DNA of 36,818 nucleotides from contig CAIWTU010000019.1 of assembly GCA_903915655.1 (NCBI GenBank), positions 1-36,818 of the forward strand, given 5' to 3'. The DNA comes from an uncultured Geobacter sp. GTDB lineage: Bacteria > Desulfobacterota > Desulfuromonadia > Geobacterales > Geobacteraceae. Shown here piece after piece: positions 1 to 2,293 of the stretch (the stretch's first letter is position 1; each line of letters begins with the position of its first letter). The position numbers and the translations under genes are program-made. Under the pieces are notes generated by a model, which ran no database searches, had not been told where the DNA came from, and saw only the letters and a program-made list of their open reading frames with translations.

Positions 1-1238
1 CGATTGGCTCGTAACACACGGCAGCTTCTCGATATTTCTGATTACTTCCAAAAATATGATGCTGCACTTATCAGTTTAGAGGAGAGCATTGACACCACTT
101 CGCCCGCAGGAAGGCTCCTCTATACCGTTATCGGCGCATTGGCTCAGTGGGAGCGTGAAGAAATATCTGCTCGCGTTGCAGCATCTATCCCTATCAGGGC
201 AAAATTGGGTAAGAACACTGGCGGGAAGGGGCCATTCGGTTACCACTGGGTTGATGGTAAGATTATTCCCAATCCAGATGAGGCTCCTGTCGTAAAGAGG
301 GCGTACCAGATCTTTCATGAAACAGGCAAGTTGCTAACCACGTGCAATCAACTAAAAGAAGAAGGACTTTATTCGAGGAGCAAGAAGGTCTACAAGCCGA
401 CGTCCCTCAAAAGGCTTCTTTCAGATACCATCTACAAGGGAATACGCAGGGCAAATTACGCAAAGAGTCTTGGCAATAAAAAGAACTGGGTACTAAAGCC
501 TGAGAAAGATTGGGTTTACACGAACGTTGAACCACTGGTGTCTGAAGAGGAGTGGGATGCTGCAAACAAGATATTCGAGGAGACCGCAAGACGATATACA
601 TCATTCAAAGCGGTCCCAAAAGTAGGAAGGTTTCTGTTTTCCGGAATACTGATGTGTAACTGCGGCGAGAAACTCTACGTTGCTCCATATCCTTCAATGA
701 AAATCCCACGTTATGCGTGTAAAAAATGTCGACTTAGGATCAATGAAGATGTTATCGACGAAAACCTCCGAAAGGCTTTGAGAGAGGTGGCTGTTGCTCC
801 GGAACATCTACTAGGTAATGAAAACCTTGAGCAGGAACTGCAAGAAAAGCAGGACAGGCTGGATCTGCTGAAAAAAGAACAGAAGGATGCAAACGCAAAA
901 GCTGATGTGTTGGTCGACTTGTACAGCAAAAACGGCATTGATCTAAATATGTTCAAGGATAGATTTGACCCGATCAAGCTCAGGCTGGACAGCATTTCCT
1001 TGGAAATTCCTCGTCTTCAGGCAGAAATTGTTTTCACCAAGACCAACGCAATTGGCAAGGCTTATGTAATAGCTAGAGCAACTACTCTGGCGGCATTATG
1101 GGACACAATGAGTTACGAAGCTAGGCTGCAAATCGTGAAAGAGCTTGTTGAGAGGATTGACGTCTGCGAGGATTCTCTGCATTTTGTCTTCTTTTATATC
1201 CCTTCGTTCGAGTCAGTAGAGAAAGGTTCACACACCTC
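1..1238 (+). mobile_element. Right end of an integrated element (serine-recombinase type) inserted in comM
   Basis: The sequence left of about 1238 does not continue the comM reading frame, and it carries a large serine recombinase gene pointing toward the junction. The comM homology starts at about 1239. The rest of the element and the other half of comM should lie to the left, outside this window. The element could be a prophage, an integrative conjugative element or a mobilisable island; nothing visible here tells these apart. Confidence 0.75.
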
Positions 1239-1248
1239 CAGGGGTTGA
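1..1248 (+). CDS. Large serine recombinase (site-specific integrase), 5' end beyond window
   Basis: This recombinase cuts and rejoins attP and attB DNA to integrate or excise its element. The reading frame is open from base 1 and the first visible residues, R-L-A-R-N, match the middle of a resolvase catalytic domain, so the nucleophilic serine lies upstream of the window and the true start is not visible. The order seen is: the end of the catalytic domain and its long helix (about 1-65), the recombinase DNA-binding domain (about 75-190), a zinc ribbon with a CxC pair (MCNCGEKL) and a CxxC pair (ACKKC) at about 217-243, a coiled coil rich in E, K, L and D (about 265-335), and a C-terminal tail. 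The last two or three codons and the TGA stop lie in host comM sequence (see junction). Codon use looks more AT-rich than in the neighbouring chromosomal genes. Confidence 0.9.
1236..1248. other. Element/host junction (att site) within comM
   Basis: Read on the minus strand, comM is normal up to codons for L-N-P. The next codon would be Cys in the conserved N-P-C motif but is TGG here, and homology is then lost. The crossover is therefore placed at about 1238-1240. The exact core dinucleotide cannot be fixed without the other junction or the empty site. Confidence 0.65.
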
Positions 1249-2293
1249 GCGCCGCGACCAGCATGAAACTCGACGGGTAGGTGATCGACATGAGGGCGCG
1301 GGAGATTGTCACCTTTCCGTCTTCCATCGGTTGGCGCAGGACTTCAAGCACATGCTTCTTGAATTCCGGCAGTTCATCAAGGAAAAGTACACCGTTGTGC
1401 GAGAGGGATACTTCGCCGGGGCGGGGTGTGTTCCCGCCGCCGATGAGTCCTATATCGGAAATGGTGTGATGAGGTGAGCGGAAAGGTCGATTTGCTATAA
1501 GAGCCTTTTCTCTCTCAAGTAATCCCATAACACTATAGATTTTTGTAGTTTCTATCGCTTCGTCAAAGGACATTCGGGGAATGATGGACGGAATACGCCT
1601 TGCCAACATGGTCTTACCTGATCCTGGGGGACCGATCATCAGGATGTTATGCGCACCGGCGGCGGCCACTTCAAGTGCGCGCTTGGCCTGTTCCTGACCC
1701 TTTACTTCGGAGAAGTCTTCATTGTATTCAGTGTCTCGCTTAAAAAATTCCTGAACATCAATGGAATGTGGCGTTATTTCTGTTTCGCCATTGAGAAAAG
1801 TCACAACTTCCGCCAATTCGGTGATACCGATTATGTCGATCCCCTCCACAACAGCTCCTTCGCAGGCGTTTTCTTTGGGGACCAGAATGCCCTTCAAGCC
1901 GGCTTTTTTTGCGGCAACAGCAACTGAAAGGCAGCCCCTGACCGGTTTGACCCCTCCGTCCAGCGAAAGTTCACCGAGCAAGAGGAAATCCCTGAGTCTG
2001 CTCTGGTTTACAACCCCTGTGGCGGCAAGAATACCGATGGACATCGGAAGGTCGAAAGACGCCCCCTCTTTTTTAATGTCTGCCGGAGCAAGATTAACGG
2101 TTATGCGCCGAGGAGGAAAGTCGTAACCCGAGTTTTTTAGTGCGGACTTGACCCTGTCCTTGCTTTCCTTAACTGCGCCATCAGGTAATCCTACCGTGGA
2201 AAACTGGGGTAACCCCGGAGCGATATCTACCTCTACTTCTACCAGAATGGCGTCGATTCCGAAGAGAGCGCTGCTGCGTACTTTGGCAAGCAT
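1239..2293 (-). pseudogene. comM: comM/yifB Mg-chelatase-like AAA+ ATPase, truncated by insertion
   Basis: ComM (YifB) is a cytoplasmic AAA+ protein with an N-terminal Lon-like/ChlI domain. In naturally transformable bacteria it acts as a branch-migration helicase during integration of incoming DNA. About 351 residues remain of the roughly 505 usual for the family. Visible are the N-terminal [15 protein letters not shown] region (about 34-48), the Walker A motif GPPGSGKT (221-228) and the Walker B region [10 protein letters not shown]. The frame loses similarity after FMLVAALNP, exactly at the junction with the integrated element. The open frame continues to 1121 through unrelated sequence, adding about 39 foreign residues. 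The sensor and C-terminal domains are missing, so the product is probably inactive unless the element excises. Confidence 0.88.

Follow-up and report, generated by a model that had tools for sequence, protein, structure and literature searches.

The integrase gene at the start of the DNA analysed here reads out of an integrative element into the host gene comM, from which it takes its stop codon, and on the circle modelled from the two element ends the same frame very probably continues into a protein with two helix-turn-helix (HTH) units, as a single gene that integration would split. The stretch, referred to below as the window, is a whole contig of 36,818 nucleotides (G000:C19, 1-36818) from an uncultured Geobacter sp., with the integrase on the plus strand and comM on the minus strand. 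Confidence in the one-gene structure was lowered slightly because of two genomes, G095 and G309, that are described below. The best overall explanation, which is considered likely, is a serine-integrase element in comM with its attP inside the integrase-HTH gene, so that integration splits that gene.

The integrase frame and the split comM gene

The first 1,248 bases of the window are one open frame with Resolvase and Recombinase domains (Pfam). About 79 N-terminal residues are absent (the profile match begins at position 80) because the contig begins inside the gene. The full-length integrase of a near-identical locus, L009, has 500 amino acids, with the Resolvase catalytic domain at its N terminus in addition to the Recombinase domain. 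The window integrase matches a PHROG integrase family, and its profile also matches solved serine integrases. The final codons are TCC AGG GGT TGA. The frame crosses the element/comM junction before its stop, and the TGA spans the L-N codons of the comM motif A-L-N-P, read antisense. The analysis confirmed that the integrase frame crosses into comM and borrows its TGA from the antisense strand of that gene, as a sequence-only reading of the window had proposed.

Table 1. Positions of the features discussed in the text; those without a contig name are in the window.
Feature	Position	Strand	Basis or remark
Large serine recombinase (integrase), element-derived part, 5' end missing	1..1238	+	Pfam Resolvase, Recombinase; 100% protein identity to L009/L010
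Right-hand attP arm GTAGAGAAAGGTTCACACACCTC, up to the CA core, mirroring the C12 arm	1216..1240	+	Symmetry read directly from the sequences
CA crossover dinucleotide	1239..1240		Same comM position in tabulated left ends and examined right ends
N-terminal half of disrupted comM (YifB/ComM family AAA+ ATPase), up to ...A-A-L-N-P	1241..2293	-	Pfam ChlI + Mg_chelatase
Integrase TGA stop from antisense comM (L-N codons)	1246..1248	+	Read from the sequence
Tandem arrays (L131-L143, L150, others)	G098:C45 52-119 kb; G007:C1 978-1032 kb
Tandem arrays, further contigs	G023:C11, G093:C57, G103:C146, G120:C64

The same integrase protein (415/415 amino acids) is present at L009 and L010, in two metagenome-assembled genomes labelled uncultured Geobacteraceae. 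Window positions 1 to 1242 differ from these loci at 8 of 1242 DNA positions; positions 1200-1244 are 100% identical, no mismatch follows 1242 until 1247, and three stretches past the junction are 66 to 74% identical. Because identity falls to that level where comM begins, the element boundary must lie at or before 1246, and the collapse past the junction indicates that the same element end sits in different host comM genes. The genomes that share this near-identical integrase DNA are assigned to different families, which reflects either very recent transfer or mis-binning.

The remainder of comM was found in the same genome, at the end of contig C12 (L008:9154-9684), as the sole Mg_chelatase_C match among 171 contigs (3.36 Mb); that search returned no second comM C-terminal half (C-half). 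The gene resumes there at P-C-P-C-G, preceded by the mirror-image arm, and about 118 bases of the left element end are attached to it before the contig stops. The proposal that an integrative element sits in comM was thereby borne out at both ends, with the integrase abutting the N-terminal half (N-half) and the left end, which the sequence-only reading had suggested looking for, attached to the C-half. In other genomes the site is uninterrupted in the intact comM genes L061, L073, L074 and L246.

At several loci (L011, which holds the attR of Trichlorobacter thiogenes ATCC BAA-34, L023, L028 and L039) the comM N-half next to the integrase has been truncated or broken up, which suggests that comM decays after insertion. 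Several comM C-halves, each with its own left element end and differing in comM sequence within one genome, occur in G122 and G125 (L080-L084) and in G020 (L085); they are possibly fossil attachment junctions from other hosts, carried inside the element.

An assembly or contig-edge artefact, or a dead relic, was weighed against these data. The contig begins inside the integrase gene, the element of this genome seems to be scattered among contigs, and a search of the bin for the remainder of the L009 element did not find it, giving a single 106-base match at 71%. However, the same junctions lie inside long contigs of G116, G121, G125 and G122, and a near-identical integrase is found in different host comM genes. 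An artefact or relic is thus hardly credible.

The crossover dinucleotide

The CA dinucleotide lies in the comM N-P-C codons, at the identical comM position in all 27 tabulated comM left ends and in all 12 right ends of a 12-lineage table. In right and left ends of many elements the attP arms are nearly symmetrical and centred on CA; one junction, L131 (G098), is exceptional in having CC. In lineages such as G035, G093 and G112 the two junctions have nothing but CA in common, which fits a serine integrase and not target duplication. Target duplication had been considered for the CAGGG common to the two junctions of this genome, and was rejected since this shrinks to CA in other lineages.

Stop codons in related integrases

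A search of 141 genomes of the order gave an integrase match in 68, of which 43 were weaker than 1e-40. Right ends were examined in 27 order genomes, with the right-end fragments of G067 and G086 left out. The comM N-half adjoins the integrase in 24 of these 27, and in every one of those 24 the frame runs through the core to a stop in antisense comM. The sequence-only reading would have been undermined by relatives ending with their own stop at the same residue; every comM-site relative examined in the order ends in host sequence instead, and the own-stop cases are a sister clade that uses another gene, rpsI, and one genome outside the order, G309. Often the host stop, TGA or TAA, comes some eight codons further along, antisense to F-M or I-M codons; it comes earlier in the window because of a Leu codon there. 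A functional role for the host-encoded tail was considered and rejected, as the tails vary in length and sequence among hosts.

The other three genomes, together with a second copy in G091, represent a clade whose target is the 3' end of rpsI (L019, L037, L044 and L213). Three of these four loci were read to the end and have their own stop in a hairpin-like tail; the G091 locus was read for its site only. In the tree, which was rooted by two very long outgroup rows and leaves five phylum lineages outside, L035, the main comM clade and the rpsI clade form one group (100/99) that excludes other comM integrases, and given that root the own stop of the rpsI clade looks derived. The HTH protein described below was sought in these relatives, with a best match of E 0.49 in the fetched G091 region and none in G074 or G109.

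Beyond the order, 21 of 395 phylum genomes gave matches at 1e-40, a few of them belonging to the order itself. Fourteen phylum loci were inspected. Six (L222, L225, L226, L228, L229 and L230) are full-length, lie beside comM and end in host sequence; L227 resembles them, but its contig ends, and L224 (G309) has an in-element TAA and a right end without CA. The remaining loci are more remote, are broken or lie elsewhere.

One frame from integrase to HTH protein on the modelled circle

At the left end, the frame that continues the integrase phase across the core encodes the two-HTH protein, of roughly 140 to 180 residues. Joining the two ends as on an excised circle gives a single integrase-HTH frame of about 632 to 677 amino acids in 12 of the 13 lineages with both ends. 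Right and left ends were paired within genomes for 16 of the 21 order genomes that have both comM ends (in G104, G075 and G108 the comM C-half was not found). All 19 pairings give one open circle frame, in which 17 reach a stop and two (G000 and G068) run off the contig; in the genome of the window itself (G000) the HTH frame is visible for 42 codons only, after which contig C12 ends. The five remaining order genomes were checked separately. Of these, G087 and G092 keep the phase; the joined frames of G096 and G098, whose left end is disrupted, close after 29 codons. In G095 the comM left end, L058, belongs to the other phase class and stays open for 8 codons only with the right end of that genome, but another left end, preceded by a second type of right end (R2, see below), is in phase with it for 163 codons. 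L058 (G095:C170), whose phase class is the rarer one, has two consecutive HTH frames separated by Ns.

Among the phylum lineages with both ends, five of six (G360, G478, G398, G166 and G169) are in one frame of 632 to 677 codons; the joined frame is absent in G309, whose left end lacks the HTH frame. No left end was found in G299.

The relation between the two frames was examined in the 12-lineage table, in which the integrases are 43 to 85% identical to that of L009 and from which G309 was left out. The C of CA occupies codon position 3 in ten lineages and position 1 in two (G068 and G112). When right and left ends were paired all against all, own and same-class pairs stayed open for 147 to 183 codons past the core, versus 8 to 80 codons for cross-class pairs. 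A chance phase between the integrase and HTH frames was rejected on this all-against-all pairing. Because G068 and G112 are not sisters in the tree, at least two changes of phase must be placed on it, and each affected both ends.

Read in the frame that continues the integrase, the linker from the core to the first HTH shows coding constraint. Over its codons 10 to 32, the third codon position accounts for most of the variability (share 0.546; permutation P = 0.00025). This test used 39 of the 53 distinct left-end junctions; 46 had 459 bases, and L182, which is without the alignment motif, and six junctions with a premature stop (L119, L124, L129, L161, L170 and L188, of those 46) were omitted.

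An alternative explanation is an incidental run-on, in which attP overlaps the 3' end of an integrase gene whose last residues are unimportant, the HTH protein is a separate regulator starting from a GTG or TTG beside the core, and the phase match arises by chance, by inheritance or as a by-product of the arm sequence. An ATG, GTG or TTG is present at codons 1 to 4 past the core in 10 of the 12 lineages, so the HTH protein could be translated alone. The integrase is also domain-complete without the HTH part, the frames of close relatives are not independent, and G095 is out of phase with its comM left end. A trivial explanation was also considered by the authors who described a comparable overlap in Dehalococcoides, in the passages available (PMC3146451). 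However, chance would give the matching phase in 1 of 3 independent lineages, and the two phase classes co-vary at ends that are 16 to 161 kb apart where both are on one contig. Furthermore, the HTH frame of G068 has no ATG, GTG or TTG from the core to codon 48, and the rpsI clade shows that an integrase of this kind can attain its own stop. An incidental run-on is therefore considered improbable.

The sequence-only reading had predicted a different integrase C terminus in the excised circle. The modelled circle does have one, but a "different end" was too weak a description, in that the frame is fused to a two-HTH protein. The meaningful change on integration would be the loss of the HTH domain and not the gain of a host tail. 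Overall, that reading was partly supported.

The joined form was also sought directly. None of the 53 distinct left-end junctions has an integrase tail joined to the HTH frame (attP), and an attP-like pattern had no match in viral contigs. With the window sequence as the query, no integrase relatives were found in viral contigs; with an alignment as the query, three integrase loci were found there, none HTH-fused, and one of them (L257) abuts comM. Searches of plasmids and phages gave only integrase relatives below 60% identity.

Proposed mechanism

The window is interpreted as holding attR, the right end of an element in comM that is integrative and probably conjugative. In a relative, G116, about 54.5 kb separate attR from attL and include open reading frames that read by eye as F-type tra genes. 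A large serine integrase would have inserted the element at the CA of the comM N-P-C codons. On the circle, one gene of about 632 to 677 codons would encode the integrase together with a domain of two XRE-like HTH units that begins with a beta hairpin, and integration would cut this gene. The integrase would retain about 480 to 510 element codons, with its stop read from antisense comM, and the HTH part would be left at the opposite end of the element as a gene of its own, with a start at the core or upstream of it. We infer the existence of the circle and the translation of the fusion from junctions, a host stop, a phase match and a linker constraint that are read in the sequences.

The left-end protein has two XRE-like HTH units, which match HTH families. 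Its structure model (pLDDT 88) has beta strands within residues 2 to 21 and two HTH bundles. The HTH part matches phage regulator and repressor families. A fold search with the model gave no match at E ≤ 0.001, and the best, weak, matches of the HTH part include P22 c2, 434 Cro, DdrO and Stl; both the families and the weak fold matches resemble repressors. A second, complete copy of the HTH gene is present in this genome (L144, G000:C95, 745-1237). Its core is preceded by yet another right end (a hairpin and about 30 bases), and beyond it on C95 are open reading frames that read by eye as tra genes and that the assembly does not join to the window.

Three functions for the HTH domain can be considered. 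In the one that we prefer, and consider an evenly balanced proposition, the fusion would act on the circle (attP x attB), the loss of the HTH domain on integration would limit re-integration, and excision would need the HTH protein in trans from attL. The second is that the HTH domain is a recombination directionality factor (RDF). In that case the fused form on the circle would promote attL x attR and work against re-integration, so that the element stays circular for transfer, and the integrase and free HTH protein of the integrated state would give regulated excision. To our knowledge, RDFs share no common family, and sequence therefore cannot decide this point. Artificial integrase-RDF fusions do catalyse attL x attR recombination with a reduced efficiency of attP x attB, according to the available part of the report (Olorunniji 2017, PMC5737554), but a fusion of this type would hinder integration in a recipient, where the gene of the circle is alone present, and the HTH families and weak fold matches look repressor-like. 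An RDF function is thus regarded as rather unlikely.

The same family and fold matches favour the third function, in which the HTH domain is the repressor of the element, attP lies in its frame so that only integration releases the repressor, and the integrase is merely a carrier. There is a precedent in mycobacteriophage BPs, whose repressor gene contains attP and yields a shorter product after integration (passages seen of PMC4557955). However, the BPs repressor loses its C terminus, whereas the HTH part here would lose an N-terminal partner. A repressor released by integration appears no less doubtful than an RDF. Returning to a fusion that acts on the circle, if the fused and cut forms act differently, directionality or self-limitation would be built into the positions of the two parts of the gene.

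Tandem arrays of units that share the left end

A pattern for the left-end arm matched 61 places in 30 of the 141 order genomes, and the reversed control pattern matched none. These gave the 53 distinct left-end junctions, of which 36 abut a comM C-half (counting L051 and L136, labelled "other"), 14 abut R2 and 3 abut something else. The C-half junctions number several per genome in some genomes and derive from divergent comM genes. R2 is a second conserved right end of about 62 bases with a hairpin, found at 20 places in 10 of the 141 genomes (control, 0). Seventeen of these sites lead into another left end, two into a comM N-half and one elsewhere.

Such units are arranged in tandem (Table 1). 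Each opens with the CA core and an HTH gene and closes with R2, and the cargo is mostly different; the neighbouring genes were different at 10 R2 copies, apart from a pair of copies in G098 with the same neighbours. In G007, 62 kb separate the junction of R2 with the comM N-half from the junction with the comM C-half, and G007 is not among the genomes with an integrase match in the order search. The R2 units are read as integrase-less units that accumulated in tandem, via integrase supplied in trans or by homologous recombination between HTH genes.

A broader scheme would combine these observations in a self-limiting integrase, in which a fusion found only on the circle integrates, destroys its own gene and leaves a truncated integrase and a free HTH protein that jointly make up a state controlling excision, with units that retain the HTH half but have another right end instead of the integrase gene using the enzyme in trans to build the comM array. 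This scheme is put forward tentatively, as a possibility on the doubtful side. If correct, it would help to explain comM as a loading dock for large arrays of accessory genes, and it would suggest natural integrase-partner fusions for genome engineering. The family of these integrases extends over many Geobacterales and more distant relatives.

Comparison with known systems

The literature searched, in which subscription papers were mostly uncovered, gave no description of a natural serine integrase that integration separates from an HTH domain, which is weak evidence for novelty. Two components are already in print: comM-type genes as targets of serine integrases, and a serine integrase that overlaps att and lacks its own stop (DsiB). 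What would be new here is what the circle should encode, an integrase fused to an HTH frame.

Homologs of magnesium chelatase/ATP-dependent protease, which are taken here to be comM, were targeted by 12.4% of predicted site-specific integrases (Durrant et al. 2022, PMC10083194, in the passages available). As in the present case, a gene of this kind is disrupted by a serine integrase. Those passages of PMC10083194 make no mention of an integrase gene that is split, of a stop from the host or of a fused HTH domain, all three of which were read or modelled here.

There is a close resemblance to Dehalococcoides DsiB, which always overlaps att and has a stop only outside the ssrA island (McMurdie et al. 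2011, PMC3146451, in part). The authors suggest, as a possibility, that DsiB is fully functional only on the circle (PMC3146451). The element described here has the same feature, a serine integrase frame that overlaps att with its stop outside the element, and the tandem islands with repeated target ends described in the available text of PMC3146451 are counted as a further likeness. The DsiB islands differ in targeting ssrA instead of comM and in carrying a second, small serine recombinase, DsiA, and that text names no partner domain on the circle (PMC3146451). The HTH frame is a candidate for such a partner here, and thus a candidate answer to the question raised in 2011, how such an integrase would end when it is encoded by the circle.

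The modelled circle has attP in a coding frame, as is required of an integration-dependent gene switch, with G095, G096, G098 and G309 as exceptions. The recombinase of mycobacteriophage BPs is a tyrosine integrase. BPs resembles the present system in that attP lies inside a coding gene and integration alters the end and the activity of a protein in BPs, but the split gene of BPs is a repressor and the one here is an integrase (PMC4557955, in part). The integrase-RDF fusions of Olorunniji also unite an integrase and a small partner in one polypeptide, as modelled here, but they are engineered and, as far as the portion consulted goes, are not made or broken by recombination (PMC5737554).

Two further systems share either the split gene or the target with the element analysed here. 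The integrases of SSV-type archaeal viruses are tyrosine recombinases with attP inside the integrase gene, which is split on integration; the integration-split integrase gene is shared with the present system, but the enzyme is a tyrosine recombinase of archaeal viruses. AbaR islands insert in the same target gene, comM, of Acinetobacter by transposition with target duplication. In contrast, the comM junctions described here share CA alone in G035, G093 and G112, without a target-site duplication, and a serine integrase abuts the junction.
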